From Pseudoscleropodium purum (lineage: Eukaryota > Streptophyta > Bryopsida > Hypnales > Brachytheciaceae), in NCBI GenBank assembly GCA_963969395.1, contig OZ017796.1, positions 40,662,243-40,726,242 of the forward strand: DNA of 64,000 nucleotides. The letters run 5' to 3'. A program made the translations under genes and the position numbers. Under the pieces are notes generated by a model. That model made no database searches. It was not told where the DNA came from and worked only from the letters and a program-made list of their open reading frames with translations. Position 1 is the first letter of the stretch. Every line of letters begins with the position of its first letter. Below are positions 1-42,221 of this stretch, piece after piece.

Positions 1-3000
1 TGAGCTCCATATATCATAAGCAACTAAACAATCAAACATCTAAATTCACATCTCCACAATTCCTATGGACGCCAATCCACATCTCCTCTAACCTTAGCCC
101 CACTACTTTCTCCTGCAGCTTTCCGTTCAAAATCTTCATTATCGGAGTCATCTTCATTGTCGGAGTCATCTTCATTGTTGGAATCAAGTATTGTTGTCTC
201 CTTCAAGTCTTCTCTCGAAGTAGGTTTATTCCCTTCTTTCGAATTTAATTTTTCTTTTTTTACTTTGACAGAACGATTAAAGGCTTTTTGAATAGGAACC
301 TTTCTTTTCTTTCTATTTGACAAAGTAGCAACATTTTCATCAAGAGGGGTCCTATTCTTCATTGGAGAGATAACAAAAGGTTGCATTTCTCTTTTCGCTT
401 TCACCTTACTCGATTCTTAAACCATCAATCTCGATGTAGGGTCGACATGTCCATGAACGGTTATCTCCACTTTGGCTTTCTTTTGAAGTAATAGAGTGTC
501 GTTTGTTGATTTGATGGGTTCTTGCGCCATTCCTTTTCCTAAAATGCAAGCACGCAAAGATGCCAATGGCATCCGATTACTATCCGTATCACTTAGGCTT
601 GTAGGTGATGACGCTACTTTCCGTAGATTACCGCCTGTAGAAATTTCTTTGGAAATGTTCATTAGGCGTTTTTCATATCCAAAGCTCTAAAAATCATTCA
701 ATCGTGTGCTAACAAACTTCAACGGTATTGGTGGAAGAGCACTAGATCTTGGTACTTCAAAAATTGACTTCATTGGCTCTTTTTCTTTATCACTCTTCAC
801 AATTGCCGAATTTGTGACTGTCATCCCAAATGAATCGCTATTTTTTTGTACCGCAATATTTGGTTCCCTCTCATCACCACTATTGTTGCCCACATCTTTT
901 GGAACGTCCACCTCTATGACCGCATCTTCTCTTTTGTCGTTTCCTTGCACTATATTTAATGCCACAGATGGAGATTGAGAAATTAAAACTTCTTCATTTC
1001 TCCCATCATCACCAATAGTATTTTCATTGATTTTCACCTCTTTGGCAATAGCGTTTGCCTTTTCCGATAGAATGTTTTCGCTATTCAAGTATCCCATCTC
1101 ATTGCAATATGCAGTTAAAGAAGGTAGATTCTCCTGTACCTCTACATTGTCCTTATCTTCATAAAAGGTATATGCATCGTTTGCATTGTCGGGAACAACA
1201 TCCTTGCGGTTTAGATGATAATCATGCGAATCATTCACCAAATCGAGAAAGCCTTCCATAACGTCTTCATCTCCCCATGCTGTCGCACGATTGAAGTCAT
1301 CTCCGCCATCTACAACTGAAAGGGCCCTTTCCAAATCCTCGTCATCATCGTCTTCTAACGTCGGTCTATCTGAATCCTCTGATTCCATCGGATCCACATT
1401 ATCATTATACCATTTTTTTCATCTTTTTCCTTCGATGCGTTTAATACTTTGGAATTGGTATACATGTACACCAAATCCGCTGTTCTCTCCGGCTTCAATT
1501 TATTTCGAGATTTGTTGTGAACAAAAGAATAGTTGCTCCAATTTCGTTCACATGAAGATGATGACACCGGTTGAGCCAATATCCTCTTTGCTAATGGAGC
1601 TATAAACTTGCCACATGCACCTTCAAAATCCCACCAAGCATGTGCGGACAACATTTGATCTCCCGGATTCAACATATTGTGGAATGGAGGTTCCTTGTGT
1701 CGAAAAGCCACAAATTCCTTCACCACTGCTGTATATTCATCCGGTTTACATATTCTCTCCAAAACTTTTTTACATCCTGACATTGCATCTACGTCATCCG
1801 CTAGCTCTTTGTTATGAAGAAGGTATGGATTCAAAAGAGCTGCGGTTGATTGGAGATCGTTGTCCACCATTTTTCTTCGGGCATAAAAAGACTGTACCAA
1901 TGGAATTGCAAGTTCTTCTAGCAAACAAAATGGTGGACTTTGTAATCCGTTCACGTGTTTCTCTAACTTCCTCATGATATGCATCACCTTCCCCATGCAT
2001 GGTGATTTTGAATCCAAATCGCGGAGTGCACATATGATTGGTTCAACCATCTCCACATAATTGATGGACCAATTCCAAAAATAGTCATCAAGAACAATTT
2101 TCTTTACTACTAAGGCCAAGTCTTTTGGTTGGACTTTGGCTCCACGTTTCTTCTTGAGAGTATGTACATACTTAAGCCATTGCGGATCTACCACCGTTTG
2201 TTTCAATGCTCCTCTCAATTTTGTCAAACGCTCCATCATGATAAATTTAGAGGCGAACCTTGTATCTCTAGGCATCAAGAGACTAAGATTTGGCGAATAC
2301 TTTCGCAATGGAGCTAGCGGCATATGTCTCTTTCTGATAAATTTAGCTACAAGAATTCCTTTATCCAATTTGGAAGCAATTCATTTCTGTGCAGCCTAAT
2401 CCTTTAACAACAAATTCAATGCATGTACCACGTACCCTTGGTAAAAAATATGAGGATATTTTGCAGATATTACATCCCATGCGGACGGATTCACGGGAGC
2501 ATTATCCGTAGTTATTAACACAACGTTCTTGGACCCCACTTGTTCAATGAACTTTTCCAACACAGTTGTCAAGTACTCCGCATTTTTTCACAACCACTTG
2601 TATCCACAGATCCAAGAAATTCTTCACCTGCGGATGATACAAGCATGGCATTGATGAGAGGTCGATTAGTCACTGAGCTCTATCCATCAATAGATAATGT
2701 TGCTTCAAATTTTCGAATGCTATCTTCGGTCCGTACATTCAACTGTATCTGAATGTTGGTCTTCGCCTCATTCAACAATTTGTACCGAAGGTTGTGGTAT
2801 GAGGGAGGAATGTATGGCCTACCAAACGCAACCGTTTTCTTCACTACTTCTTTAAAAGCTGGATTCTGAGCCACGGAAAATGGTATGTTCGCCGAATAAA
2901 AAAAATTTGCCCACATTGAATGTAATTTGCGTCTATGACCTTCTTCAAACCCATTCACTAAGCTGCCTTGCCTCTGAGGCCTAGAACTTGATGCCCTCGG

Positions 3001-3701
3001 GGTTTCACGTTCAACAGAAGCTTCCGTACTCAAAGTCATTTCAGTTGTGGCACATACCATTGATACCAATTCTTTGGACGTTGGACAAGAGTCTTCGTGG
3101 TCATAATGCGACACAGCCTTTCCGGCCGAAAACTCTTGGACATCTGAAGGGCCAGGGTTGCCATCCACATTGTCCATTACAACGCGTTTTGGAAAAACTC
3201 CTTCGCAATGCCGAAATAAATCTCGAACTACCATTGGTAATTGTAGACAAAGGCTCACCCCTTTATCACGTATACCTCCAAGCCCAGGATAGCCTAAGTG
3301 GCTGAACATACGGCTGAGTTTTCTTGACATGATCGCTTTGCAAAGCCTACATTTTACTTACCATCTTCTGGCACACTATACCAAGGAGAAAAATCCCCCG
3401 TCGGTTTGGCCACCATACTGACAAGTGTATGTTTTACCTCAATTTCAAAAGAAACCAATAGAATATTTTAAATTTGAAACCCACAACGTGACAATGTATA
3501 CAATATCAATGAAATTAGTCACACAAAGCTTTGAAAATCAAAGCCCCATCGTCCACCGAACTATGCATTACCAAGCAAGAGACACAATAAATTGAAGCTC
3601 ATAGCCCTTGGAAATCTTAGCATTCGATTTTTCGAGATTGAATACAAAAGCTTCTCTTCAAACATTTATAGTCCCCTCTAGAAAATTTAAGGTTCATTTT
3701 T
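1..3701. repeat. Left arm of 3.7 kb perfect inverted repeat
   Basis: This arm is the reverse complement of 10597-14297. Every pair of matching coordinates sums to 14298, so there are no indels across the arm. All translated frames are identical between the arms, and the non-coding stretches I compared also match exactly. The arm runs off the left edge of the window. At 3701/10597 identity stops abruptly, but homology continues for about 70 bp with several mismatches and an indel in an A-run. The arm carries one copy of the hAT transposase pseudogene. Confidence 0.95.
63..3416 (-). pseudogene. hAT-family transposase pseudogene (BED/DUF659/dimerisation), left copy
   Basis: This is a mirror copy of the pseudogene at 10882-14235, with the same domain order and the same lesions. 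In-frame stops lie at 2680-2682, 2396-2398, 2381-2383, 687-689 and 417-419. Single-base losses in A-runs lie at 2583-2588 and 1413-1419, and the frame is broken just before the BED-like zinc finger. It is transcribed leftward, away from the spacer. No lesion is private to this copy, so the gene was already dead before the inverted duplication formed, or the copies have since been homogenised. It cannot encode a full transposase as read. Confidence 0.88.
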
Positions 3702-3737
3702 TAAGGTTTACATTCAAAAACAACCAACGGCGCATAC

Positions 3738-3957
3738 GGGGCTGAAGCGGATGGATGGACAGGACGGTTTGTCGGACGGGTCAATCGGTCAGACAGGGCG
3801 GTCGGATGGGGCGGTTAGCGGTTGGACGGCGCGGGCGAGCAGACACGCCAGATGAGTCGGACGGACAGGGTGGACGGGCGATTGGATGCGGCGGACGGGG
3901 CGGTCGGGCGGACAGACCAGACGGGGAGGATGGACAGGGCGGACGAGGTGGACTTCG
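3738..3957. repeat. CpG-rich CGGACGG/GGCGGACGG array upstream of left transposase copy
   Basis: The block contains many overlapping GGACGG, GGCGG and GACAGG motifs in an otherwise AT-rich region. It sits 5' of the left transposase copy. It is recognisably related to the block at 10331-10590 in front of the right copy (shared CAGCCCCGT and GCCGTTG steps), but it is clearly diverged, unlike the identical arms. It may be hAT subterminal or promoter sequence. Apparent open frames on both strands are products of the low-complexity composition. Confidence 0.75.
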
Positions 3958-4445
3958 CATTGCCATTAGTCATTAGAAAATTTTATATTGTTATGTAATT
4001 TGAAAGTTACACAATCACAAATGAATGCATTCACGTAAAATAAGATGTACATATAAAAATATTTTTATATGCAAATGAAAATATAACATCTTTATATATA
4101 AATATATATGTATAAAAAAAATACATGGAAATATAGTTCCAATATCACTATTGAATCCTATACGATCTTTTTAAGATCTAAATCTTTCACATTCTTTTTT
4201 GTTTTTAAACAATGAAAGGACCATTGTTTTTAAAAAACAAAATTCTCTTCAAATCCTACTTTTCACCGGATGGACTACTACCTTCTCCCAAAACAAAAGG
4301 AAAATCTATTGTACCGAAGAGTTTAGCAGATGATTGATGAGTTGACCGTTGTTGACTTGGATGGACTATTCACCCTCCAGATTGAACTTCGATGTCCACC
4401 TTATGAAATTGTTTCTTGGTTTCCAAAGAGAAGTCATCGTCCTCT
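3958..4445. other. AT-rich stretch, no gene seen
   Basis: Sequence rich in A/T with short ATAT runs around 4090-4130. I see no coding signature and no hAT terminus (CAGGG or similar) that would close the left transposase unit. Confidence 0.5.
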
Positions 4446-4643
4446 TCACGCTTCCTTTTTTGGTGATAAATCGACTTCGTCTGCCTTCAAGGTTCTCAAG
4501 TTGCTCTCCACACGATCTACCATTGCTTGAACAACTTCATCATCTCCTTTCCCTTGCCATGTTGTGAGGCAGTCTCCATCCAATAGGAAAGCCTTCCAAT
4601 GCCCTATAATATTGCCAATGTGCCTATCAAATGCTGCTGCCAC
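4446..4643 (-). pseudogene. Unrecognised coding-like fragment
   Basis: A 65-codon frame with a normal amino-acid mix and a C-terminal stretch rich in acidic residues and lysine. I do not recognise the family. The same strand upstream (towards 4970) has further coding-like pieces broken by stops. It may be a remnant of a captured or older gene between the left transposase unit and the hAT terminus at 4974. It is as likely to be chance as real. Confidence 0.25.
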
Positions 4644-4973
4644 ATCTACAGATGAATGTCATGTGCTTGTTTGTCCATTTGTATCGTAGACAACACGAAC
4701 TTTTGCAGCCTCTTCCAACTTCGACAATAGAAGGGCCCTACCTACGAGGGTGTGGTCGTATGCCTTATATTGCTGGTCCAACTCTTTTCTATGGTTCACC
4801 TCCACCTAACTATCTTCAGGTCCTCTCTCCACTTTTTTATCTGGAAAACGAAAGAACTTTTCGTGTTGCAAGCTCCAATCTCCCCCCATGTTGCGACAAA
4901 ACATTTCACAGGCCACGTCATTTACGATTCCTTGAGCCCGCAATTCCACCTTTCTATTGTGAGTCATCTACAC

Positions 4974-5160
4974 TAGGGTTGACACGACGTTCGGACGCGA
5001 ACGCTGTGTCCGCAGCGTTCGCTGACATTCGCAATCCCCGCGGACGCAGCGTCCGCCAGGACCGCCCCGTCTGCCCCGCCCGTCCGCCCCGTTCGCTTTG
5101 ACGGCCCTATTTCCCCCAACCGCCCTACCCAAACTGCCCCGCGGTCACTCCCTTAATCTT
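4974..5160 (+). mobile_element. hAT-type left terminus with CpG-rich subterminal region
   Basis: It begins TAGGGTTGACA, one base different at the start from the CAGGGTTGAC end used by this family. Inside, a GAACGCTGTGTCCGCAGCG stretch is nearly identical to the left half of the small hAT element at 41957-42213. CpG-rich CCGCCCCGTCCGCCC-type sequence follows. The 8 bases outside (ATCTACAC) do not match those outside the right terminus at 14710 (CCAAGGAA), so the two ends cannot be shown to delimit one insertion. Confidence 0.65.
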
Positions 5161-5594
5161 TAAACAATTAAATGTTAAATGAAGTGCAATGGTTCGCTTA
5201 AAACAATGTCTCTTATAAGTTGAAAGATTATAAAGTTTGACCATGAGTCCATGATAGTCTTGAAACTATGAAAAAATTCCAATTCATTTTCAAAAGGCAA
5301 ACTAAAAAAGTTTGTGACTTCAAATATATATATATATATACTATTTAAAATATCAAGATCAATACAAATACAAACATAATCAATATGTGCAAAATATATT
5401 GAATTTAATATAGAATACCATACATAGTGTACATTTGGCTAATTGCACATATAATTTTTTTCATTCCAACTCTATATTTCTAAACTAATTTTTAATGCCT
5501 ATATAACCTATTCAACTACTACTTTTGCACTACCAATCTAATATAAATGGCGGAAATGTTCATCTGGCATCGGCCAACGATATGTATTAGAAAA
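5161..5594. other. AT-rich stretch with (TA)n microsatellite, no gene seen
   Basis: This lies downstream of the kinase pseudogene and inside the hAT terminus at 4974. It contains an (AT)n run near 5325-5341. It could hold the kinase gene's 3' untranslated region, but no defined signal is visible. Confidence 0.5.
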
Positions 5595-7031
5595 TCACGT
5601 AATCACTTGGGCCAAACTAATATTTTCATCGTCAGTCTTCGAAGAAATGCACTTCAAGTAAGCATAAAACACTTTTGCAAAGTCATGAAAGGCAAATTGT
5701 GTCGCACTAGGTGTTTTTCGTAGCACGTTGAAATACGCCTCTAACATGTTGTTTCCATTCATCCGCCGAGCAATTTTTCGAATGGCATACTCTTCCGACT
5801 TACGTGAATACATCGAAATGACTTCCACATTTGCACCTGCTTTATGCAAATATGCAATACGTGGATCCATCCACCATCTCCTCTACAAAGTTTGTTTCAT
5901 CTCATCTGTTGATGTGAATGTGTACAAAGACTTCATTGGGTGAGAAGCTAAGGTGGTTATGCCCCAATCGCAAACTCCAATATACACACGTGACTCATCC
6001 TCTGGAAAATGCAACAAGATGTTGTCCGGAGAAAGATCATTGTGCAAATGTCCAGCAAGATGTACTGCATACATTATATGCATAAACGCCCATGTCAACT
6101 CCGTGCGCTTCTTCCGATATCGTCCTAAATGGTGAGTTTTTACAACCTCCTCTTCGGTTGGATTCATATACATCAAACGGATTTGAATGTTGTTTGGAAA
6201 GTTCTTATCCATATTTAACATTTATCGAAGAGTTCCACCATTCCACCAATACGCATAACCTTCACACGTCGTTCCGTGCACCGCAGCAAACCGTATCACA
6301 CCCGCGTGTGGAATTCGAACAGCCATTGATTCGTTTTCATGTTCTAGCTTTGCAAGATCGGGTCGAGTTTGGTGGTGAATGGATTTCTTTGCCGTAAACT
6401 CCCAATAAGGAAGTATTCCTAGGCATCCTTCAATACGAACCTTTCGAATCGTTGCATATCCACCTCTCATTGTTCTATCATCAACAGCAATCACGCGTGT
6501 TGTATCTGGAAGTGCTATGAGGTGCCGTTTGGTCCTTTCCGCTTTAGCAACTCCATCATTGCTTTTCCACCAACCAATTGAACCAACTTGATTGTGCGTT
6601 TTGGCGAATGGAGCACATCGCCCCCTAAACAAGTCCGCTTTCAGAATCACTTTTTCAAACTGGGCGTCATTGGGTCGATATTCCTTGCCATATTTAACCA
6701 AAATGACTTTGGAATTCCACAAAGCGTCATAAACCTTGTTCTCCAAACATTTGGTGAAGTACGTTTTATGCATTTCGTCATGCCACTTCGCCACATTCAA
6801 TGCATCCAACAACATCTGTGTCATGTCTACCTTGAATTTAGACACGCACTCCTCTTAATATCTGATGTACTTATTGTCTAAAGACAATGTTGTTTCCAAT
6901 TCATAAAATTGAACGATGCGCTCAATCATGAATTTTTTGCATTCCTCCGAAGGACTTTGGCGAGCTACCTCCAAGTTTGAAGGTCCCTCTTCATGTTTAA
7001 GCTTCGCAACCTTCTTCTTCCCCTTCGTCAT
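5595..7031 (-). pseudogene. Protein-kinase-like gene inside hAT-type DNA, three in-frame stops
   Basis: A single reading frame runs from ATG at 7031 to the stop at 5595 (about 478 codons), interrupted only by in-frame stops at 6855-6857 (TAA), 6222-6224 (TAA) and 5883-5885 (TAG). There are no frameshifts. Visible kinase features in order are a glycine-loop-like RGGYATIRKV, a hinge-like YAYWWNGGTLR, a catalytic loop HNDLSPDNILLH (N in place of R in HRD) and CDWG in place of DFG. A lysine-rich N-terminus and about 190 residues without a recognised domain precede the kinase part. It is transcribed toward the hAT terminus at 4974, with a CpG-rich array upstream at 7199-7560. This mirrors the transposase gene layout. 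Function is unknown; it could be a captured host kinase or an accessory gene of the element. Confidence 0.7.
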
Positions 7032-7198
7032 CGTGACAAATGAAACTAATATAGATGAAATTTTCTAATTTAAAATTGAATTCAAGTGCAAGTGTTCAAA
7101 AAATTGGCAATAAAGAGGCCCCAATAAACCACTCTTGCCTTGCCTCGGAAAGGAGCTAATAGAGGATGAACCACCAAACTCTCCGCTCCACCTTGCAT

Positions 7199-7560
7199 TC
7201 ACAAGGGGCAAAGCAAAAGTGACAATGCGAACGGCCCGTCTGCCCCTCTTATAAGGGCGGACGGCCTGTCCACCCCATCGGACGACCCTAAACCGTCCGC
7301 CCGATCGGACGGGCTCGGGGTGGCGGACGGATCGGCCGTCCGCCTCCCCGAAACCCTAGAACCCCGTCCGCCCAATCGGACGGCCATGGGCGGACAAATC
7401 TGGCGTCCGCCCGATCGAACAATTCGGGGGGGTAGACACATCGCCGTAACGAGGCGGACGGGTATCGGGGCGGACAGGGCGGACGGATATCGGGGCGGAC
7501 GGGGGTCTGGGCGGATGGGGCGGACGGGGCGGTTTGACCCTAAAGCGCTCCGACGTCCAT
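7199..7560. repeat. CpG-rich CGGACGG array upstream of kinase pseudogene
   Basis: A dense array of GCGGACGG/CCGTCCGCC motifs with three or more GATATCGGGGCGGACGG-like units near 7455-7500. It lies about 170 bp upstream of the kinase ATG, as the arrays at 3738-3957 and 10331-10590 lie upstream of the transposase copies. The right edge (GTTTGACCCTAA at about 7532-7543) vaguely resembles a hAT end, but no target duplication supports it. Overlapping frames in this block are low-complexity artefacts. Confidence 0.7.
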
Positions 7561-10171
7561 ATTTTGCACGATAAACAGAGGTCTTCATGGCACTGTATAG
7601 TTCAACTAACTTTTCATTCATTCATTGTAAAATTTGAAATTAAAAAAGGTAGCCTTCCTTTATGACTAAATTTATGAATTCTTGGTAAATGATATTTTTG
7701 TATAAAGATATGAGCTAAAATGTGCAAAAATTCACGAAAGGATTGCGACGTTTAATATATGTACCCAAATATTCACGTTGCATTGTGTATAAAGCAATTG
7801 TAAGAAGGTAGTTGAATAAAAATTCTACTATTAAATTGAATTAGTTGACGTCTAATCACTTAGTAAATCGCTAAATGTCTAAGTCTTTGCAAGTGTGTTT
7901 TGGCTATCGAAAAAGAGCATGGACTTATAGTTATCCCCAATGAAGCAAATTGTTCTTTTTCCAAAATCTAACGGTATAGATGTTTAGCCCCTAAAGTTCT
8001 TTTCACTAAAAACACTTCAAAACTGCCATTAGTAGTGCAAATACCAAGTCTTGGAAGAAAAATAATTTTGGGCATATGTAACCGTAGGATCTTGTAGTAA
8101 ATTAGTTGGAAAAGATGTGGAAAAAATTTTAGACAAATCCACCATTTGGATTGTAAGGTATTAGATATTGAGTGTTTCATTTAAGGGGGCTACTCAATTA
8201 TGTCTATTAATGAACAATTGGTAGGCTAACAAACCTAACTTAGCATGTATTTTAATATTTGTTGCAATTGTTTTAGGAATATTATAACATAATACTATTA
8301 TAATATTCTTATAAATGATATAATACTAAATTATTTCAAAATCAACAACATTTGAACACAATCTGTCAATCTTGTCTTCCATACTCCTTTAATGATATAT
8401 ATATATAAATATATATACATATATAAAATATATTAGATAAATCAACATGAACAAATCAATGATTATATATTTCATAGATCTATTCTTCATCAATCAAATA
8501 AGAGTGCATGTGCAAATATAGACAAAGATGGTTTCTCCATTTGTTCCCAAAAATTAAATAAACAAATAGAGAAAGATATGAAGTGAATGTTACTTGGAGA
8601 ATTGAAGGGAAAGAAATTGAAGTACTCAATTGCATTTTATTAAATTGAAAAATTGCATGTGGATGGTATGAATTAATCTTCATAGATGCTAAATTCATAC
8701 AAGTTGCATTTCAACATTTATGATTTATGTAATTGATTGAATTGAAAGCTCTTGTAATTACATTTTCAAATTTTCGATTCAATCATTCAAATTTGCAAGA
8801 GTGATTTATGATAGATTTATAACTTTAAATGTGAAAGCATTCAATGTCTTTATGCATTTGTTCATCAATATATTAATTTTAAAAAAATAATATATATTTT
8901 TTATAACATATGCATAAATCATTGCATTAAAAAAAATAAAAACTAAGAGCCAAGCCAAATAGGCTGGTCAAATGAAGAGAACAAGAGAACAAAAGCTCTA
9001 CGAGAAAGCAAAGGAAAAAAAGAACATATCAAAAGGATTCAAAGGAAGGAGCAAGATGCATTCTTGCAAGACCGTAGAATACATAATGTGATAATGATTT
9101 CAAAATCCAAACACAAATATATTTTCTATTTCAATGAGAATCAAAAATGAACTTCCCTGCTCTCAAAGATTGTACAATGTACACGTTATACAAAACGAAC
9201 ATATAACAGAAAGAGTAGAAGACATCGTTTATCATGATTGAAAACTGAAATGATTTTTTGTTTCTATGTAGAATATTTTATGAAATGTAACAATGTATTT
9301 AATTATCATAGTAATTGGTAGAAATCTTTGTGCAATACATAGAAACATTTCATTCATGTGGAGTTTTTTCATTTATTTAGGATTAAAATTGAAGTATTAT
9401 ACTTTACAAAGTACAAACCAAAAACAATACCATATACCTAAGTTCAAAAGTTTGCAATTGTTTCGTGAATTCATTTTGAATACTCAAACGAAGAAATATT
9501 TTATAATCAATATCTTGTTCATTTGAATCATTTCAAAAATCGAATTCCGAATTCAATTCCTATTTATAATAGAAATTATGTTTGTCAATTTTTTAGATCT
9601 TTAAACAATGAACCCTCTTTTTTAAAATTAATATTTAAAAACATCTGAAATAAGAATATTGGAATTACCCTTCAAAATAAATATAGCACATGCATAAGTG
9701 TATAATGTATTCTACTCAACCAACTCAAGTAACGAATTTTTTCTATGTTTTTAAGGAAAAATATAGCCATACATGATTTGAAAGTTAAAACATTGATTTT
9801 TTTTCTTCGTTTTCAAATCTAATCAAAATTTCATTAAAAAATATGAAAGACTCGATGTTCATTTGAAGATCGTGATGCACTTCTAATCAGAAATCACAAC
9901 CTTTCATTAAATATCATGAGGTTGAAATCCATTAAACTGTTATTCTAATTATGTATTGAGGCCTTTTTAAAAAATTTCATTTGCTTACGATGAAAAAGGA
10001 ATTGATTATTTCTGCAAAACATTTGATTTCCTAATGAACTTTAAAAAAATCCCCACCATCTTCAGATCTTCTCAAAACCTATTTAGAAGGATAATATGAG
10101 TAAATAATCCAAACATATTCAACTTAATCACATTCCCCTCATTCGTAAAACAATTTAGGAGAGAAAAGAAA
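7561..10171. other. 2.6 kb AT-rich spacer, no gene seen
   Basis: Long A/T-rich DNA with (TA)n near 8396-8440. The short frames on both strands have no recognisable motifs, and I found no terminal repeats or tandem arrays. It separates the kinase unit from the right transposase unit. Confidence 0.5.
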
Positions 10172-10208
10172 AGGTTTAGGGTAATTAGGGTATAGGGTTT
10201 AGGGTTTA
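10172..10208 (+). repeat. Short interstitial telomere-like TTTAGGG motif
   Basis: The stretch reads GGTTTAGGGTAATTAGGG followed by TATAGGGTTTAGGGTTTA. It is a degenerate run of the plant telomere heptamer with three to four partial units. It sits about 120 bp before the GC-rich block upstream of the right transposase copy. It may equally be a telo-box-like promoter motif or chance. Confidence 0.6.
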
Positions 10209-10330
10209 CATTTAAAAAAAAAAAATGATAAATCAATTACATTGATCCTCATTTAGCAGTGATTATTAGGCTGTTTTTTTTTGAAATGTTACCGATCTTT
10301 TTGAGTAATATCGGCCTCATAGGATGCTCC

Positions 10331-10590
10331 AATGGACAGCTGGGCGGACGCCGTCGGCAGTCAGTGTTTAAGTGGGGCGGTCGGCATGTCCAAAACGCAG
10401 ACAGCGTCGGAAGGCGGACAGTGCGGACAGTCCCGTCCGCCGTGTCCGACCGCCCGTCCGGCCCATCTGGCCTGTCCGCCCAACCACCCTGTCCGACCAC
10501 CGTGTCCGACCCGTCCGACCCGTCCGTCCGCCCGCTCGCCCACCCCGTCCACTTCAGCCCCGTCCGGGCCGTTGCTTGTTTTTGAACGGA
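10331..10590. repeat. CpG-rich CCGTCCGCC array upstream of right transposase copy
   Basis: Many GTCCGACC, CCGTCCGCC and GGCGGAC motifs, many CpGs. It is the counterpart of 3738-3957 but diverged. The last bases (CAGCCCCGTCCGGGCCGTTG) align with the left block with several mismatches, directly next to the perfectly identical arm. It may include the promoter of the transposase gene. Confidence 0.75.
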
Positions 10591-10596
10591 AACCCT

Positions 10597-13500
10597 AAAA
10601 ATGAACCTTAAATTTTCTAGAGGGGACTATAAATGTTTGAAGAGAAGCTTTTGTATTCAATCTCGAAAAATCGAATGCTAAGATTTCCAAGGGCTATGAG
10701 CTTCAATTTATTGTGTCTCTTGCTTGGTAATGCATAGTTCGGTGGACGATGGGGCTTTGATTTTCAAAGCTTTGTGTGACTAATTTCATTGATATTGTAT
10801 ACATTGTCACGTTGTGGGTTTCAAATTTAAAATATTCTATTGGTTTCTTTTGAAATTGAGGTAAAACATACACTTGTCAGTATGGTGGCCAAACCGACGG
10901 GGGATTTTTCTCCTTGGTATAGTGTGCCAGAAGATGGTAAGTAAAATGTAGGCTTTGCAAAGCGATCATGTCAAGAAAACTCAGCCGTATGTTCAGCCAC
11001 TTAGGCTATCCTGGGCTTGGAGGTATACGTGATAAAGGGGTGAGCCTTTGTCTACAATTACCAATGGTAGTTCGAGATTTATTTCGGCATTGCGAAGGAG
11101 TTTTTCCAAAACGCGTTGTAATGGACAATGTGGATGGCAACCCTGGCCCTTCAGATGTCCAAGAGTTTTCGGCCGGAAAGGCTGTGTCGCATTATGACCA
11201 CGAAGACTCTTGTCCAACGTCCAAAGAATTGGTATCAATGGTATGTGCCACAACTGAAATGACTTTGAGTACGGAAGCTTCTGTTGAACGTGAAACCCCG
11301 AGGGCATCAAGTTCTAGGCCTCAGAGGCAAGGCAGCTTAGTGAATGGGTTTGAAGAAGGTCATAGACGCAAATTACATTCAATGTGGGCAAATTTTTTTT
11401 ATTCGGCGAACATACCATTTTCCGTGGCTCAGAATCCAGCTTTTAAAGAAGTAGTGAAGAAAACGGTTGCGTTTGGTAGGCCATACATTCCTCCCTCATA
11501 CCACAACCTTCGGTACAAATTGTTGAATGAGGCGAAGACCAACATTCAGATACAGTTGAATGTACGGACCGAAGATAGCATTCGAAAATTTGAAGCAACA
11601 TTATCTATTGATGGATAGAGCTCAGTGACTAATCGACCTCTCATCAATGCCATGCTTGTATCATCCGCAGGTGAAGAATTTCTTGGATCTGTGGATACAA
11701 GTGGTTGTGAAAAAATGCGGAGTACTTGACAACTGTGTTGGAAAAGTTCATTGAACAAGTGGGGTCCAAGAACGTTGTGTTAATAACTACGGATAATGCT
11801 CCCGTGAATCCGTCCGCATGGGATGTAATATCTGCAAAATATCCTCATATTTTTTACCAAGGGTACGTGGTACATGCATTGAATTTGTTGTTAAAGGATT
11901 AGGCTGCACAGAAATGAATTGCTTCCAAATTGGATAAAGGAATTCTTGTAGCTAAATTTATCAGAAAGAGACATATGCCGCTAGCTCCATTGCGAAAGTA
12001 TTCGCCAAATCTTAGTCTCTTGATGCCTAGAGATACAAGGTTCGCCTCTAAATTTATCATGATGGAGCGTTTGACAAAATTGAGAGGAGCATTGAAACAA
12101 ACGGTGGTAGATCCGCAATGGCTTAAGTATGTACATACTCTCAAGAAGAAACGTGGAGCCAAAGTCCAACCAAAAGACTTGGCCTTAGTAGTAAAGAAAA
12201 TTGTTCTTGATGACTATTTTTGGAATTGGTCCATCAATTATGTGGAGATGGTTGAACCAATCATATGTGCACTCCGCGATTTGGATTCAAAATCACCATG
12301 CATGGGGAAGGTGATGCATATCATGAGGAAGTTAGAGAAACACGTGAACGGATTACAAAGTCCACCATTTTGTTTGCTAGAAGAACTTGCAATTCCATTG
12401 GTACAGTCTTTTTATGCCCGAAGAAAAATGGTGGACAACGATCTCCAATCAACCGCAGCTCTTTTGAATCCATACCTTCTTCATAACAAAGAGCTAGCGG
12501 ATGACGTAGATGCAATGTCAGGATGTAAAAAAGTTTTGGAGAGAATATGTAAACCGGATGAATATACAGCAGTGGTGAAGGAATTTGTGGCTTTTCGACA
12601 CAAGGAACCTCCATTCCACAATATGTTGAATCCGGGAGATCAAATGTTGTCCGCACATGCTTGGTGGGATTTTGAAGGTGCATGTGGCAAGTTTATAGCT
12701 CCATTAGCAAAGAGGATATTGGCTCAACCGGTGTCATCATCTTCATGTGAACGAAATTGGAGCAACTATTCTTTTGTTCACAACAAATCTCGAAATAAAT
12801 TGAAGCCGGAGAGAACAGCGGATTTGGTGTACATGTATACCAATTCCAAAGTATTAAACGCATCGAAGGAAAAAGATGAAAAAAATGGTATAATGATAAT
12901 GTGGATCCGATGGAATCAGAGGATTCAGATAGACCGACGTTAGAAGACGATGATGACGAGGATTTGGAAAGGGCCCTTTCAGTTGTAGATGGCGGAGATG
13001 ACTTCAATCGTGCGACAGCATGGGGAGATGAAGACGTTATGGAAGGCTTTCTCGATTTGGTGAATGATTCGCATGATTATCATCTAAACCGCAAGGATGT
13101 TGTTCCCGACAATGCAAACGATGCATATACCTTTTATGAAGATAAGGACAATGTAGAGGTACAGGAGAATCTACCTTCTTTAACTGCATATTGCAATGAG
13201 ATGGGATACTTGAATAGCGAAAACATTCTATCGGAAAAGGCAAACGCTATTGCCAAAGAGGTGAAAATCAATGAAAATACTATTGGTGATGATGGGAGAA
13301 ATGAAGAAGTTTTAATTTCTCAATCTCCATCTGTGGCATTAAATATAGTGCAAGGAAACGACAAAAGAGAAGATGCGGTCATAGAGGTGGACGTTCCAAA
13401 AGATGTGGGCAACAATAGTGGTGATGAGAGGGAACCAAATATTGCGGTACAAAAAAATAGCGATTCATTTGGGATGACAGTCACAAATTCGGCAATTGTG

Positions 13501-14297
13501 AAGAGTGATAAAGAAAAAGAGCCAATGAAGTCAATTTTTGAAGTACCAAGATCTAGTGCTCTTCCACCAATACCGTTGAAGTTTGTTAGCACACGATTGA
13601 ATGATTTTTAGAGCTTTGGATATGAAAAACGCCTAATGAACATTTCCAAAGAAATTTCTACAGGCGGTAATCTACGGAAAGTAGCGTCATCACCTACAAG
13701 CCTAAGTGATACGGATAGTAATCGGATGCCATTGGCATCTTTGCGTGCTTGCATTTTAGGAAAAGGAATGGCGCAAGAACCCATCAAATCAACAAACGAC
13801 ACTCTATTACTTCAAAAGAAAGCCAAAGTGGAGATAACCGTTCATGGACATGTCGACCCTACATCGAGATTGATGGTTTAAGAATCGAGTAAGGTGAAAG
13901 CGAAAAGAGAAATGCAACCTTTTGTTATCTCTCCAATGAAAAATAGGACCCCTCTTGATGAAAATGTTGCTACTTTGTCAAATAGAAAGAAAAGAAAGGT
14001 TCCTATTCAAAAAGCCTTTAATCGTTCTGTCAAAGTAAAAAAAGAAAAATTAAATTCGAAAGAAGGGAATAAACCTACTTCGAGAGAAGACTTGAAGGAG
14101 ACAACAATACTTGATTCCAACAATGAAGATGACTCCGACAATGAAGATGACTCCGATAATGAAGATTTTGAACGGAAAGCTGCAGGAGAAAGTAGTGGGG
14201 CTAAGGTTAGAGGAGATGTGGATTGGCGTCCATAGGAATTGTGGAGATGTGAATTTAGATGTTTGATTGTTTAGTTGCTTATGATATATGGAGCTCA
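10597..14297. repeat. Right arm of 3.7 kb perfect inverted repeat
   Basis: Reverse complement of 1-3701, with no indels. Position 14297 pairs with base 1 of the window, so the arm may continue to the right. Whether it does can only be judged with sequence left of the window. Confidence 0.95.
10882..14235 (+). pseudogene. hAT-family transposase pseudogene (BED/DUF659/dimerisation), right copy
   Basis: The likely ATG is at 10882. After a frame break before 10944 comes a BED-type zinc-finger-like segment (KCRLC, later HLGY and a Cys). A DUF659-like region follows (about 11380-11700; FFYSANIPF, SIDG then a stop where the family has Trp). Next is a region matching the family's GC..H.LNLLLKD signature, but reading GYVVHALNLLLKD. 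The hAT C-terminal dimerisation domain is at about 12655-12870 (AWWDFEGACGKF, PVSSSSCERNWS, NKSRNKLKPER). A long acidic then Lys-rich tail ends in a DSDNEDDSDNED repeat. Lesions are stops at 11616-11618, 11900-11902, 11915-11917, 13609-13611 and 13879-13881, and one-base losses in A-runs at 11710-11715 and 12879-12885. The family cuts and pastes DNA through conserved terminal repeats. This copy is dead as read. Confidence 0.9.
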
Positions 14298-14580
14298 TGT
14301 TGACAAATGACAATGGTTTCTTCAATCATTTTATTATAAAATTGTTTGTTTATTGATGATATACATCTTGCTGGATTTTTAAGTGATTTTGTTTCTAAAT
14401 CAAAATGAAATTCAACAAAAAAATTAAAAATATATTTTATATTTTAGCTTTTACATAAATAGTGATATACAACTCTATTGAATCGCAATTGCAATATAAG
14501 AAAAATCAAAATGCAAATGACTTCACTCTCAATCTCTCATTGGTGAAAACAATCAAAACAAAAAATCCAAAACGGGTTTT
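14298..14580. other. AT-rich stretch between transposase gene and hAT right end
   Basis: This non-coding stretch between the visible end of the inverted-repeat arm and the CpG-rich terminal block is probably 3' flank of the transposase gene within the element. Confidence 0.5.
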
Positions 14581-14581
14581 C

Positions 14582-14710
14582 TAAGCCGCCCCGTCCGTCT
14601 GCCCCGCCCGTCTGCCTTCCGATGACGGGAGGGACACTACGTCCGCTGGTGTCCAGACGTCCGGGTTACGGACGCTATTTTGGGGCGGACGTAGAGATTC
14701 GTCAACCCTG
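14582..14710 (-). mobile_element. hAT-type right terminus
   Basis: A CpG-rich block ending ATTCGTCAACCCTG. The last 41 bases match the right end of the small hAT element ending at 42213 with only four differences, including a shared GGACGCTATTTTGGGG. The outermost bases in reverse complement read CAGGGTTGAC, a typical hAT start. Immediately outside, CCAAGGAA continues as Tnp2-like codons, so the element interrupts a CACTA transposase gene. CCAAGGAA is the predicted 8-bp target duplication. Confidence 0.8.
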
Positions 14711-16328
14711 CCAAGGAAAGAGTCAGTGATGGGTGACGTATTTGACGTATATTTAGAGCCACTAGTAGGGGAGTTGTTGGAGCTTTGGGCTGAGGTCCCT
14801 GCCCATGACGTCACTAAGGATGTAGGTGAAAAGGCTTTTCAGTTGCATGCCATGTTGCTATGGACTATATACGACTTCCCGAGGTATGGCACAGTTAGAG
14901 GATTTTGTCATCAAGGGTGTGCAGAGTGTCCATGGTGTGGTGAAGACCTTGGTACTGAGCATTCTATTGAACTGTCCAAGCAAACTTACGGTGGGACTCG
15001 TCGATGGCTACTTGAAGATCATCCTTACAAATGAGAAGGTATAAAGGACCACTTTGATAGATTAATGGAAAACCGCTCAAAACCCTGGGTTGTGACTATG
15101 GAGGAACAAATGCAGCACGCACTGCAGTGTGAGGCATAGAAAGCTGCTAGAAATAAAGAGGGTTCCGCAAGGGACTCCTCCAAAATTTTTGGCCTGAAGT
15201 GGTTGAGCATTCTATTTAGATTGCCATACTAGAGGGTAAGTCTCTCTAAGTTTTGGCCTTTTTGAGCAGAAAATCTTAGATGGGACTTGTACGTGACTTT
15301 CCAATCACCAACTAGTTCTCCCAAGTCATTTACGAGTTACCATTATAGGGATATGTCAACATTTGACTACAAAATGACTAGTATGTAACCAAGTTGTGAC
15401 TGCAGACTTGTACCTAATCTGTTGGTCATGTCTACACTGCCAATATCTTCTCATTTGCTACATGCTAGACCTCATGCATTGTAAAATGAATCTTACCAAG
15501 AACTTTCTAAAAACCATATCAGGGAAGGACACAGTCAAAGTGCGGAGGGATCTACAACCCCGAAATGTCAAGAGGCACTTGTGGCTCACTCCACACCCAC
15601 GTAAGGCAGGGAAGATGGTGAAGCCACGAGCATCTTATGTTTTGTCCAAACAGGATTTTGAAAAGTTTGTCAAGTGCATCTAGGATTTGAAACTACCCAC
15701 GGGGTACTCCTCAGACCTTAGCAAGTGTCTTCGCAAGAAGAATTTTGATGGCCTAAAGTCGCATGATTACCATATTCTGATGCAACAAATCATGCCACTA
15801 GCTCTTCGTGATCTGATGGAACCAGGACCTTGTATGGCTATTATGAGAATGTGTAGGGTATTTTGTTGCTTGGGCACAAAGGTATACAATCTAGCAGACT
15901 TTACGTCTCTAGAAGCAGATGTGGCAGAGAGTATGGCTCTTTTGAAGATCGAATTTCTACCTTCATTTTTTGACATAATGACTCATCTCCCATACCATTT
16001 GGCAAAGAAATTGGACTTGTGTGGTCCAGTTACTGCAAGGTGGATGTATCCAGTGGAGCGCTACATGAAAGTATTGAAGAACCACATCCGAAACATAGCA
16101 CAACCAGAGGCATGCATGGCAGAGGGGTACTTGAAAGATGAATGCATTGGATTCATTACGGAGTACCTGCACAGCTTTGAGGGCTCTCACAGGTGTGTAT
16201 GGGATGAAGACGAAGAATATGGAGATGCTGAAGAAGTTTTGCAAGGGGCAAGAAGGCCGTACATGATGAGTTCCGAGTTGAGAGATGTGGCCCACCACTA
16301 TGTGCTCTCGAATGCTGCGGCCATGTAG
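14711..16328 (+). pseudogene. CACTA transposase Tnp2 with DUF4218 region, decayed
   Basis: Tnp2-type sequence starts at the hAT junction and reads GDVFDVYLEPLVGELLELW, then CHQGCAECPWCGEDLG and YGGTRRWL. After stops at 15032-15034 (TGA) and 15137-15139 (TAG) and a non-coding gap, coding resumes at about 15396 with LDLMHCKMNLTKNFLKTISG. After a TAG at 15681-15683 it reads DLKLPTGYSSDLSKC, and then the DUF4218-like part (HLPYHLAKKLDLCGPV, RWMYPVERYMKVLKNH) to 16328. Tnp2 is the catalytic transposase of CACTA elements. The 5' half is missing. Three stops are explained by Trp TGG changing to TGA or TAG. Confidence 0.85.
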
Positions 16329-18816: not shown

Positions 18817-19559
18817 TTCCAGCGCCAAAAATTGTGACATATATGTACATGAAGGTCAAAAAACTAGGGACATGTATGGCTTAATGCTTCAAAATGCACG
18901 TTGTGAAAGGTACCAAAGTATTGAAATTTAGCCAATTTTGCAAAATTGACGTTAATACACAAAATGTTCTAGCTAGGTGAAGGTAGCCTAAACCCCCTTT
19001 TCAATGTCGCCTTACTATTGTTTGCAATAGTTGCACTTGCATTGATGTTTTCATGCTTGAATTGAAGATGTGAAAAGAAAATACTTATCCCAAACAAAGA
19101 AGCTACTAGAGAATTGGAACATCATTTGGGATACCTCCATTCTTTTTTGAAATGATTAGTTTGGCTCATGATGTTTGCATAGATCTCCTATCAAGAATGC
19201 TATGTAGTGAAATGTAATGTTATTATCATAGTGATGTATGCTAGTTTAGCTACATTTTGTTAATATCTTTGAATTTGTGCTATTTTCTAAAAAATCACAA
19301 AGCTACAAAGATGGGACACATCTAGAGCCAACTGACTCTAAGTTCTTATTCACATTAGTTTAATTACCTACTTGAGTCTCTAGAAGCAATGATTAGGTTT
19401 TAGGAGTGGAATCCCGAGCTATAGTAGAGCTACGGATGGACTTGTTCTTAGGCTAATAGGACTAAGTACATAAATCATTTATTGAGAACTAATTGAAGTG
19501 AACTAACATCTAGTATTAACCAAAAAAAACATTCTTGGCATTGGCACTTCTAAAATCGA

Positions 19560-19963
19560 TTGATTATATGCTCTTGCAAGGACATTGATTGCCATGCAGT
19601 GGAAAGAGTTGGAAATCAAGTTAAATTGCAAATAGGAAAATTGATTGCACAAATTCACCTTATTGACAACAAAGACCAAGAGGTAAACCTACCAATGATT
19701 TTAAATGTGTCACTCAAGTGTTTACCAATTTTTTTTGTTTTCTTGGCACACAATGAAACAATTTCATTCAAAAGCAAATATGAGAACACAATGAACACCA
19801 CTCAAAACCCTCTAGATCCAAACCAACTAAGCAACACCAAGGGGATGCAAGCACATCCAATTAACCTTCAAACCTTCTTGAGAGCGACGAGCATTGAAAT
19901 GCCCCCAATTGAAGGCCACCTAGTTTTGCATTTCAATTTTTTTGTTATACAGGAGACAATTTA
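19560..19963 (+). pseudogene. Frame conserved between repeat copies A and B, truncated by insertion
   Basis: The frame encodes about 134 residues resembling the frame at 60375-60773. Shared stretches include LQIGKLIAQIH, NLPMILN, SLKCL, MNTTQNPLDP, NLQTFL and EG.LVLHF. The 3' end runs into the TG...CA element at 19964, so the final residues are foreign. I do not recognise a domain. It could be a gag-like or accessory protein remnant of the repeat itself, since it occurs at the same place in both copies. Confidence 0.45.
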
Positions 19964-21146
19964 TGTCGCAGCACAGGGCAGGTCAATTCCCCATTATACT
20001 CACAAAAATCGCTCTAGAGTATAACTAAGTGACTCTAAAGATCGAACCCACGAGATCCTGTGAAGTATCTAGCTCTATTAAGCAGTTAAGCTAAGTCAGT
20101 ATCCCAATCTTACTTTCCGGTCCTAGATCTAGAACCAGAAATACCACCACACCGGATAACTACAGACCGGATTACTCCTTCTTCCGGTCCTACTTACTAT
20201 CCGGTCCATACAATTACCCAAATCCCAGGATCTCACAACTTCCGATCCTGGAAATCCGTCCTGACCAATCCGGTCGGGATGGTCATCCTGTATCCGTAAT
20301 CCTATCCGGTTTAGTTTTGCCTCTGTTTCACCATCAGAGGGGTCGCCGCTTACATTTGAGAGTGGTAGGCCCACCACTCCTTCCGTGACTTATAGTGGCT
20401 GAAGACCCACTGTCCTACTTCCTAAACTCCTAAGCTAATCCGGATCCGGTTTGGTCCTTCACAACAACCCAGATAGCAATCCGGATTGTAGGTCACACAA
20501 AGACCCCACACTCGACCCTCTCGTACTACAACGACCTTGATGCTACTTCCGATCCGTGCGAAGACAGGTGGTTACAAGTGCACCCGTCCGTTCCAACATC
20601 AACTAAAGTTCTTCCGTTACCCATACGGGTGGTGAGACCTCACAGGAGATCGGACACTCGACCGGATTTCCCACCCGGGAGTTCTAGCGCAGCTAAGGAA
20701 TCCCTCCCTACCCGCCTAGCCTAACAACGGCTTTCTCACCCGGAATCTCAAACTCTAGACGTGCTGAGGAACTAAGTTCACTCCCAACTCTTCGATACCT
20801 ACTCACATGCACCTTGGATCGGAAAAGAAACACCAAGGGGAGAAATCACTCGCAAACCAACTCGTACTATCCTAACTCCACATCATACAATCCTGTCGCG
20901 CTGGAGAGAGACACACAATGAAGAGAATAGAAAAGTACAAGAAGTTTGCAAAATGAAAAACTCCCAGTTCCCATCTCAGGAACCGATTTATATACAAAGG
21001 GTAAAAACCCTAAAAGCACAAAAAGGAGCGGAAAACCCATGGGGGTCCGTCGCCACCCTAATCTAACTTCCAGTCTAACCTAATACTGTTGAGCCGGATC
21101 CGGATCCGGATCCGCTCCTACTCCTAACTGAAATCCAAAATCCTAT

Positions 21147-22805: not shown

Positions 22806-22980
22806 TCCCACTCGAATCTACCTCACTCTCTCCTAGCCGCATGTCCCGTTCCTCACGTTCTCTCTCCGATCTCAACCGGAATCAAAACAGACAGAACACA
22901 AACGCACAAACGCCAAAAACTCAACCGCGCACGCTCAAGGTCGAGTTTCTAAAAGGGGGTGCAACAGTGAAAGCTCCTCC

Positions 22981-22987
22981 TTTTATA
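22981..22987 (-). promoter_or_regulatory. TATA box of the 552-codon gene
   Basis: TATAAAA on the minus strand (context GGGAGTATAAAAGGAGG) is 176-182 bases upstream of the ATG at 22805. This is a plausible spacing for a short leader. No other strong TATA motif lies closer. Confidence 0.55.
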
Positions 22988-23411
22988 CTCCCTGGACCCT
23001 TTCCGGTTTGTCATCATAAATCCGGTTTGCCATCATAATCCGGTCCTAGACCTAATCCGTGTTGCATTCCGTTTCCGTCGTTAGTTACTCCCAACCGGAT
23101 TAGATCCAAGAGGCCCACTACTTCACATTCCGTGCTAATTTTGAGTTTTCCTTCTCCACCTTATCGGATCCGGTTCCCTAATGACTAGTTTCCGTTCCTA
23201 TTTTGGTGTATACTAAGAAAATCAAAATTCTAAGCTGCGACAATTTACAATAGGCAAAATTGAATTTCATTATATTGGCACTATTGAGAATGCAAAAATT
23301 GTCACATTTCAACTACTCAAAGGCTTAAAATGAAATTAAGGTTGATATTAATTTAGGACTGAGAGCCGTGGATCCCAGCTTAGAAAAGTCCCCAAAAAAA
23401 TGTATACCAAT

Positions 23412-23638
23412 CCCTATAAGAAAACCTTGTTTTAGGTGACGAATTGACATCAAAAGGAATAGATTTAAGGTGACATCCGAGATGACATCAAAAAAAAAAA
23501 ACCATGTTTTTATATCAATGACAATGTCCATTGATGTTATATTGGACATCATCGTTGATATAAAAATAGGGATTTTTTTTCCAATGTCACCTAAAATCCA
23601 TTCCTTTTGACATCAATAAACTTTGGTTTCTTATAGTG
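23412..23638. mobile_element. 227 bp CACTA-type foldback MITE
   Basis: The ends are CCCTATAAGAAAACC and GGTTTCTTATAGTG, with long inverted complementarity inside (GACATCAAAAGGAAT and its complement, then TTTTATATCAA). AAT flanks both sides, and the empty site in repeat B (GCCAATG near 60910) has one AAT. A 3-bp duplication with CACTA-like termini assigns it to CACTA-derived miniature elements. It has no coding capacity. Confidence 0.8.
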
Positions 23639-39732: not shown

Positions 39733-41956
39733 GAACTACTAATGGAAACTACAACTTTAGATCCATGTGGCATATATTTCAAGCTTGCTACTTTTGAACC
39801 ATGATAATTCATGACTTGTGAGTAAGCTTACTTTCAAGTATTGAACTCAGCATATTTGCAAAGTTGCGTGAAAGGAAGTGAATGTCAGCCGATCATTAAA
39901 TCTTGGATGCCATGATTCTCTGTTGATGGGCCCAAGGAGTGAGATAGAAGCTGACGCCAAGAATGCTCTGTTTTAATTGACTGTGTTTGGCTCGTATATG
40001 ACCTACAAATTGTTTCGTTTTGTTTGATTCATTTCGTGGACAGTAAATTAATTGTGGAAATTGGACTGGTGGCTGATCTTGTAGGGTGCTCAGTCTCGAT
40101 AGAAGGGTGAATTTCATGGGGATTTGACAATGGAGTATGTGATGCCATTCTCATCTTAGGTACTTTTTACGATAGGAGTACTCTAGAGGACCCAGAATTT
40201 TAATGATGGTTGAAGGCGGCGAAGTCCTGGAGTGAACCCTTAGTGTGTTGATTAAAACCGAAGGTTGAATGAGATTAACCCCAGAGCGGTGCCCTTTTCT
40301 TATACTTTCTTTATTTGATCCTCAACGGGATGACCTTGCTGCCATTCTAGCCTTAGCACAAACCTACCAGGTCTCATTTTCCTCTGTTCTCTAGGGTTTG
40401 TGATTTGTAAGGATCTTCTTAGATAACCTGGAGCCAAGTTCAAGGGTCTTCAAAGCATTGGGAATGGAGGAAGAAATCCTAATTATAGTATGTTGGGTTT
40501 TATCCTTTGAGTCCAGTTTAATACAAATTTGATATTTCTCTTGAAATTTCTTATGCACATTGTTAAGTTTGAGGCACACACAGTAGGAGATCCAACAAGG
40601 GTGAGCTCAAATTATTCTCACAACATGAAATCATGAATGCAATACTCGACTAATTCTGCCGAGCATAATGATCAATGATCTTGTTTCAAATTGATTGATT
40701 TGTACTTCAATTTCTTTTGGAATTATGCTTTAAAGTTTTAAGTGTGTCCAAAATTCTTACATGCATTAGTGAATTTGATTTCGTAGGAATGGGAAGACCT
40801 ACACTCTAGCAATTGAGGTACCAAGATCCAAGTGCTTATGTTCCATTCTTCACCAAAATCCTTTCCATTAGTTTGAATGTTTCCTTGTCATGAGCATTGT
40901 GGTGGACCATGAGCATTGTAAGTCACCATTGTTGACATTCGTTGAGAAGTTCAAGAATTTGTGAAATATCTATTTGTGTCAAATCTTGTCAATTGTAATG
41001 TTGTGTAAGGAAATTTCAGTATTAATCTTAGAATTTGTAATTCCAGCTTAGGCAATTGTAAATGTAAATCCTATCAATTGTTATGTGGTTGGATTTCTAG
41101 AACACATCGGGGGTGGATTCTCTTTTCGTGAGGCAATCCTTCTACAACATTCTTAATTCTCCCATTTTCTTCCCTTATGAAAGTTGCATGGTCCACGAGG
41201 GTATAGAAAGGTATTTCCAGTCATTGCCTCTTACAAAGCTACAAGTATTGTCCAATGATTGGGCTTTTTGGATGTCCGAAGCCTTGCCCATGGCACCTCT
41301 ATACAGATCCATGGTTTGTAAGTATCATGTGGGCAACTATCATATAGAGGTCAAACCTTGTTTTTCGCAATGAAATTCTGTTTCATTTGTTGTTATAAAT
41401 AAGTAAAGCTGAAACCTCTCTGCCTGGCCTGCTTATCAACCGTGTCTGTATTTTGTTATCTGCACTAAAAATTATCATTTGTGTAAGAAATAAAAAACCC
41501 TACCATGAATTCCTGAAATCCGGCCAAGCATTTCAACAGCACAAGTTCCAAGCATTGGAATAGACCCTACGCTGACAAATACTTCATAGTTCCTAATAAC
41601 TTAGTAAGTTCTTCATGTGGGAATGATTTAGTTGCAACTGCACACAGCAGATCCAATGTAGGATATGGTAGGATCCATTATGTTTCAAAAATAAATAAAG
41701 AAGTCGACCATATAAGGGAAAAGAGGGGTCTATAGATAGTTGAGTGCAGCTAAACTTTAGTAAGAAATTTTGACAGAAAGAGAAATGACGAATACATCAT
41801 TAGAAATTTTTTGGAAATTTTCCAACACAGCATGCATTATCTAGGAATTTCCAAACCGAAAGGTCCATAGGTCACTATTCCTAATCATAGAGAGGAGGTG
41901 AAACAAATTTCAAAATGTCTTTTAATTGTGCAAGTCAGTCCCAAATGTCATAGAAG
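39733..41956. other. Intergenic DNA, little support for genes
   Basis: An 86-codon frame at 41113-41373 (SFYNILNSPIFFPYES, LQVLSNDWAFW) has a plausible amino-acid mix but no recognised family. Otherwise the stretch holds nothing I can name. Confidence 0.35.
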
Positions 41957-42213
41957 CAAGGTTGTCCGGACATCCGGATGCGGACGCTGTGTCCGCAGCG
42001 TCCGCCCCGTCCGCCCGTCCGCCCGATTACGGCCGTCCGATCGACGCGCGGACTGATCTGGTCCGCACGATCAGGGCGTCCGCCTCGGGCCGTCCGCCCC
42101 GTCCGTCCGCTTTCCGACGGCAGTCGGGACGCTGCATCCGCCAACGTCCGTGCGTCCGGACGTCCGGAAAACGGACGCTATTTTGGGGTGGATGTTGACA
42201 TTCGTCAACCCTG
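41957..42213. mobile_element. 257 bp non-autonomous hAT element with 8-bp target duplications
   Basis: It starts CAAGGTTGTCCGGACATCCG and ends ATTCGTCAACCCTG. CATAGAAG lies immediately on both sides (41949-41956 and 42214-42221), a perfect 8-bp hAT duplication. The left half shares GGACGCTGTGTCCGCAGCG-type sequence with the terminus at 4974. The right 41 bp match the terminus ending at 14710 with four differences. The body is almost pure CGTCCG/CCGTCCGCC-type array. It encodes nothing and would depend on a transposase of this family. Confidence 0.92.
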
Positions 42214-42221
42214 CATAGAAG

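Follow-up and report, generated by a model that had tools for sequence, protein, structure and literature searches.

A two-gene hAT transposon family in a moss genome with a predicted protein kinase as its accessory gene

The window analysed here is the whole stretch of 64,000 nucleotides, corresponding to positions 40662243-40726242 in a 313-Mb assembly of 52 contigs, which was the genome searched for related sequences. Positions 4974-14710 of the window very probably hold a hAT DNA transposon of two genes, here called class A, in a copy that is rearranged and inactivated, with the following features:

4974..5120, + strand: 5' end, made of the terminal inverted repeat TAGGGTTGAC (4974-4983) and a subterminal GTCCG/CGGAC array (family end motif, genome matches)
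5541..7031, - strand: accessory gene for a predicted protein kinase, 497 codons with 4 in-frame stops and no frameshift, reading toward the 5' end (codon comparison, relatives)
7230..7560, - strand: GTCCG array upstream of the kinase, with 11 CGGAC and 4 GTCCG on the + strand (motif count)
7560..10320, no strand: AT-rich spacer separating the two divergent genes (sequence)
10320..10600, + strand: GTCCG array upstream of the transposase, with 10 GTCCG and 3 CGGAC, and the point where class A and class B diverge (motif count, copy comparison)
10882..14235, + strand: hAT transposase gene with DUF659, hAT dimerisation region and long C-terminal tail, broken here (Pfam, open copy)
14570..14710, + strand: 3' end, made of a subterminal array and the terminal inverted repeat GTCAACCCTG at 14701-14710 (end motif)

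Copies of the class A family measure about 9.6-10 kb and follow one order, namely hAT end, kinase gene, GTCCG array, AT-rich spacer, second array, DUF659-hAT transposase gene and hAT end. There is a strong case that the class A element combines a DUF659-type hAT transposase with a divergently transcribed protein kinase, each having its own GTCCG array upstream. Inverted repeats of the form CAGGGTTGAC, with GTCAACCCTG as the 3' counterpart, delimit the element, and its CAGGG/TAGGG-type start is as in the hAT superfamily. An earlier note on this DNA had placed hAT-type ends at 4974 and 14710, and these are indeed found as TAGGGTTGAC and GTCAACCCTG, respectively; the CpG-rich array that it described upstream of each gene is also borne out by counting. 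In particular, the window element contains 43 GTCCG/CGGAC motifs, grouped in arrays, one at each end and one ahead of each gene, and their sense is mostly constant relative to each gene (11 to 4 on the kinase side and 10 to 3 on the transposase side). A genome-wide search with 24 bases of the 5' end, in the form that they have in the copy L026, gives 533 matches, and the reversed control gives 0.

The hAT transposase that was thought to read toward the end at 14710 is recognised by a PF05699 match in the window piece and, in L026, by PF05699 (E 7.6e-9) together with PF04937, DUF659 (E 7.9e-32), both above their cut-offs; the N-terminal BED zinc finger PF02892 gives E 0.055 in L026, which is below cut-off. 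In the window the gene is damaged, with 5 in-frame stops and four gaps, three of a single base and one of 9 bases. The L026 transposase continues for 466 residues after the dimerisation match. Tails of 251-538 residues follow this region in the close relatives P0064-P0110 where measured (45 of 47), with the exception of P0071 (43 residues), and distant relatives of the transposase occur in vascular plants, the named ones with 0-194 residues where measured, a comparison limited by the length filter of the search. The Ser/Thr and acidic content of the tail is unremarkable, and the acidic share is no higher in long tails than in short ones.

The other gene had been noted as a kinase-like frame on the minus strand at 5595-7031. 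The frame is real while its extent was too short, as the gene covers 5541-7031 and a stop had ended the noted frame early. Comparison with an open genomic copy gives 0 insertions or deletions over the 497 codons and 4 in-frame stops, in agreement with the description of a gene interrupted by stops only. HND and DWG do occur in the window frame, as reported; they are not altered motifs, since, judging from the sequences of the family, they are its normal motifs and the catalytic residues are retained. Indeed, K215, E234, D332, N337 and D355, which from general kinase motifs we take to be the VAIK Lys, the helix-C Glu, the catalytic Asp and the Mg-binding Asn and Asp, are invariant in 41 sequences, that is, the kinase and 40 database relatives at 23-73% identity. 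Since the L026 kinase scores 22.1 bits against PF00069, under the Pfam cut-off of 31.7, its assignment is based on fold and residues; PF00069 is matched at E 0.01 by 40 of the 41 family members, with 2.5e-15 as the best value. A sequence search of the PDB with the kinase returned weak kinase matches alone (best E 0.0012), and the solved folds nearest to the predicted one are of TK/TKL type, including FGFR2, EGFR, RIP2K and BRAF, at 10-17% identity in the matches listed. By its predicted fold and retained catalytic residues the accessory gene is classed as a protein kinase. It differs from these TK/TKL kinases in having HND for HRD and DWG for DFG throughout, and in about 165 additional, helical residues at its N-terminus, for which Pfam gives no match; the comparison with solved structures bears almost wholly on the part after residue 167. 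In two lists of kinase relatives, no organisms are named other than Ceratodon purpureus and one bacterial MAG, in a search that reaches only relatives with short exact words in common, and we take the MAG relative to be contamination; no kinase relative with readable genomic context was confirmed in viral and prokaryote collections.

The earlier note had allowed that the kinase might be found at ordinary host loci only; it is instead a repeat. A 112-aa piece used as query has 1138 candidate places in the genome, and the best 150 of the 1138, which were scored, all show at least 89% identity. No second kinase subfamily was found in the genome with the queries P0053 and P0020, the 82 and 87 scored rows being alike in identity to the query. 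Copies of the kinase do adjoin an end of the 4974 type, as in seven of the eight best places the match to the window starts at window position 4972-4975, the eighth being the window itself. Twenty copies were fetched, chosen for long open kinase frames, and 17 of those were extended. The end motif is present in 19 of the 20; the transposase lies in one unit with the kinase in 16, in blocks 89-95% identical to the window, and four have a different right half from window position ~10433 onward. L019 is a copy with kinase and transposase and an internal deletion.

For 17 of the 20 copies (all but L013, L025 and L027) the two ends were identified, and nine of these 17 (L009, L014, L016, L017, L021, L022, L023, L024 and L026) are flanked by exact 8-bp target duplications, compared with 0 of 272 in a swapped-flank control. 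The flanking 8-mers differ by one mismatch in L010 and L028, by two in L012 and L015, and by at least three in L011, L018, L019 and L020 (4 of 17). Among the class A units with both ends located, exact duplications surround 6 of 13, at separate places; complete units with kinase, transposase and 8-bp duplications, which were sought on the strength of the window copy, are thus at hand. One of them, L026 (10,004 bp), is flanked by CAAGATGG as an exact duplication and carries both genes open (kinase of 497 aa, transposase of 1121 aa), and among the 12 class A copies listed it is the only one in which the whole transposase frame is open. The two-gene hAT unit, put forward earlier as a candidate, recurs in 16 of the 20 fetched copies, and its structure and past mobility are established. 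The window itself holds a short member of the family:

41949..42221, + strand: 257-bp non-autonomous derivative (41957-42213) with exact CATAGAAG duplications, its left end like that at 4974 and its right end like that at 14710

Since this derivative pairs an end of the 4974 type with one of the 14710 type, it is independent evidence that the two ends belong together.

The two genes also go together across the genome, in a comparison that does not depend on the chosen copies. Indeed, 35 of the 119 listed transposase places have a divergent kinase partner within 14 kb among the 224 listed kinase places, with 6 more pairs on the same strand, while random shifts of the listed places give 2.4 pairs on average and 7 at most. 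Of the 84 transposase places that have no listed kinase partner, eight, hand-picked and all on the + strand, were checked: four have kinase sequence at the expected distance, one has element sequence alongside, one has class B sequence and two have nothing recognisable. The kinase is common and not universal among transposase copies, which would fit old, truncated and recombined copies, though elements free of the kinase may exist. One may ask whether kinase and transposase are rather two different elements, adjacent or nested by chance, given that the outer 8-mers of the window element differ and that several elements are nested at this locus. Kinase and transposase together are enclosed by exact duplications at 6 separate class A places, which speaks against this, as does the finding that 31 of 35 close pairs are divergent, mostly with similar spacing, so that we regard it as extremely improbable; for the family it is ruled out by the duplications, and it holds only for the rearrangement of the window copy.

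That rearrangement is apparent from the surroundings of the element in the window, where two further pieces lie to its left:

1..3816, - strand: second, inverted transposase half, 99.2% identical to 10482-14297
3888..4973, - strand: class B remnant (3' part of the RING-like gene and 3' region), 92.8-93.5% identical, adjoining the end at 4974 on its left

The inverted half has its 3' end 412 bases left of the window (-412) and is cut off in its array. The right flank of the element is the start of a CACTA-type gene with DUF4218 at 15687-16328, presumably TNP2. As the earlier note had observed, there is no match between the outer 8-mers ATCTACAC and CCAAGGAA. An inversion between the two inverted copies was considered and rejected, as it does not give back a target duplication, the outer 8-mers at -412, 4974 and 14710 being all different. 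Since all three differ, the unmatched flanks reflect a rearranged copy and not a fault in the two-gene idea.

A similar organisation is present in class B. Three of the four fetched copies of this type (L021, L023 and L024) measure 11.7-11.9 kb, all with exact duplications. They retain the kinase, in the identical place and orientation as in class A, while a RING-like gene and a third gene replace the transposase, so that the kinase gene lies inside a mobile unit at independent insertions of both classes. The RING-like gene encodes up to 1075 aa, with zf-RING_11 at E 2.7e-5, below cut-off; the third gene, on the minus strand, has no Pfam match in the piece searched, and class B units contain no recognised transposase. 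For the RING-like gene there are 720 candidate places in the genome, and 32 of the 110 scored pair divergently with a listed kinase, while no listed kinase place has a RING-like partner and a transposase partner at once. Full-length kinase rows are without a stop in 35 of 87 cases, and in 7 of 17 among the rows paired with a listed gene B; class B kinases are no more decayed than the others. The remaining copy, L011, is a hybrid without a duplication, whose kinase half matches that of the class A copy L012, ~20 kb away and inverted, at 98.4% identity. It switches to class B inside the array ahead of the second gene, and on this sequence evidence the GTCCG arrays look like sites of exchange between element halves.

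Comparison of the open kinase copies bears on whether the gene is maintained. Shared substitutions have an N/S of 1.16 compared with a neutral value of 2.47, and 0 of 1000 simulations are as low, while for once-seen substitutions the values are 2.12 and 2.56, with 102 of 1000 simulations as low, so that these are not clearly depleted. The test left out L011, whose kinase gene is identical to that of L012, and its copies were picked for long open kinase frames, which may introduce a bias. Depletion of amino-acid changes in shared substitutions, though not clearly in singletons, is a signature that points to a kinase under selection and not a relic. In parallel, the class A and class B kinase consensus sequences (class B being L021, L023 and L024) differ at 18 positions, 7 N and 11 S.

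These values have to be set against a passenger reading, in which a hAT picked up a host kinase on a single occasion and carries it with no role in transposition. Plant DNA transposons capture kinase fragments, class B shows that the family takes up other genes, and the once-seen substitutions are nearly neutral. A passenger would, however, sit poorly with the depletion among shared substitutions, with a gene, place and orientation constant across both classes and with catalytic residues invariant in relatives so diverged, and no host-type source is among the relatives named by the search, itself limited to those with short exact words in common. Thus, capture without function appears improbable.

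Several aspects of the moss element are shared with known systems. Plant hATs with DUF659 transposases (Ac-like, with named vascular-plant relatives among P0114-P0144) likewise combine DUF659 with the hAT dimerisation region, and known plant hATs have CAGGG-type ends and 8-bp duplications. To our knowledge, known plant hATs have one gene each; the moss element adds a kinase gene, a long-tailed transposase of 1121 aa and four terminal and internal GTCCG arrays. Two-gene units exist among other plant DNA transposons, namely En/Spm (TnpA, TnpD), MuDR (mudrA, mudrB) and PIF/Harbinger (transposase and a Myb-like protein), which likewise join a transposase and an accessory gene and in some cases have repeat arrays near their ends; as far as we know, the accessory proteins either bind DNA or have a biochemistry not yet known, and are not kinases, and none of these transposons belongs to the hAT superfamily. 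VANDAL elements, which are Mutator-like, encode VANC anti-silencing accessory proteins, again an accessory gene possibly protecting the element's own copies, while VANC is no kinase. We know of no other hAT with a kinase as accessory gene. The element is therefore a hAT by its ends, duplications and transposase, and the kinase-type accessory gene sets it apart from the others known to us. No kinase-bearing hAT was found in the literature at the level of titles and abstract openings, subscription papers and preprints being outside this scope, and a term search of the main text of PMC9247546 was likewise negative.

As for its role, the kinase would be catalytically active and would serve the element. 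The route ranked first, which we hold at somewhat less than an even chance, is that it phosphorylates the transposase, perhaps via the long tail, or the transposition complex; the tail as substrate is a guess. Phosphorylation may then set the timing and place of transposition, with the transposase cutting and pasting both classes through their common ends and class B units moved in trans by class A. The GTCCG arrays at gene starts and ends could, speculatively, be bound by the transposase in a way that also controls transcription. The kinase might instead serve the element through an effect on the host, countering silencing, in the manner of the VANDAL anti-silencing proteins, or shifting the cell-cycle or DNA-repair state, with the RING-like protein of class B as a second host-directed factor, and this is possible, though short of probable. 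It would accommodate the kinases of class B, which decay no faster despite the lack of a recognised transposase (7 of 17 compared with 35 of 87 without a stop), the addition of a RING-like protein (zf-RING_11 below cut-off) and the predominance of G>A and C>T among the changes (451 of 618, counted per copy), as expected of methylated, silenced copies. However, a kinase acting on a transposase supplied in trans would explain class B equally, and the fetched class B copies were chosen for open kinase frames. The kinase may also have some role other than these two.

A wider and decidedly tentative picture would be that of two interdependent hAT classes with one selected kinase, exchanging halves by recombination in their GTCCG arrays, in which phosphorylation, and possibly ubiquitylation through the RING-like, ubiquitin-ligase-like protein, controls transposition or host silencing, with a kinase-transposase partnership old within mosses. 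If true, transposition or silencing would be under a novel type of control encoded by the element itself, a conserved kinase inside an abundant hAT family. In another sample, a relative of the kinase (P0033) and one of the transposase (P0071) come from the same source, with a longest contig of 27639 bases for both, and these equal lengths suggest that the two lie on one contig.

Among the places listed in the moss's own genome, family copies lying 2-50 kb apart are mostly inverted relative to each other, with 19 inverted versus 6 direct neighbours for the kinase, 8 versus 1 for the transposase and 5 versus 0 for the RING-like gene, tallies that overlap one another. Several neighbouring pairs among these places have equal scores, and the window holds an example of an inverted pair, listed here with its other features:

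1-3816 and 10482-14297: neighbouring transposase-half copies, inverted
14711-16328 (+): transposase region of CACTA type, containing DUF4218
21147-22811 (-): open reading frame, 554 aa long
42961-44567 (-): kinase-like gene, distinct from the hAT kinase, adjoining the 257-bp non-autonomous hAT derivative

The excess of inverted neighbours may derive from a mechanism of transposition or rearrangement, or from local conversion.

The class B copies L021, L023 and L024, in which no transposase was recognised, carry the RING-like protein gene together with a third gene, whose product is acidic and rich in Gly, Tyr and Ser, and their target duplications are exact.

As for other kinases, the protein P0002 from a Bacilli bacterium MAG (NCBI, IMZ40_01335) shares 71% identity with the kinase frame of the window and probably stems from eukaryotic DNA contaminating that MAG. 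The second kinase-like gene of the window, where PF07714 exceeds the cut-off in both frames and PF00069 in one, resembles a normal kinase of host type and may contain introns.

The CACTA-type region, which presumably includes a TNP2 part, is apparently broken, and the 554-aa frame has no Pfam match. Several blocks of another repeat are common to 18817-24927 and 59252-62223, in equal orientation and at 75-82% identity.
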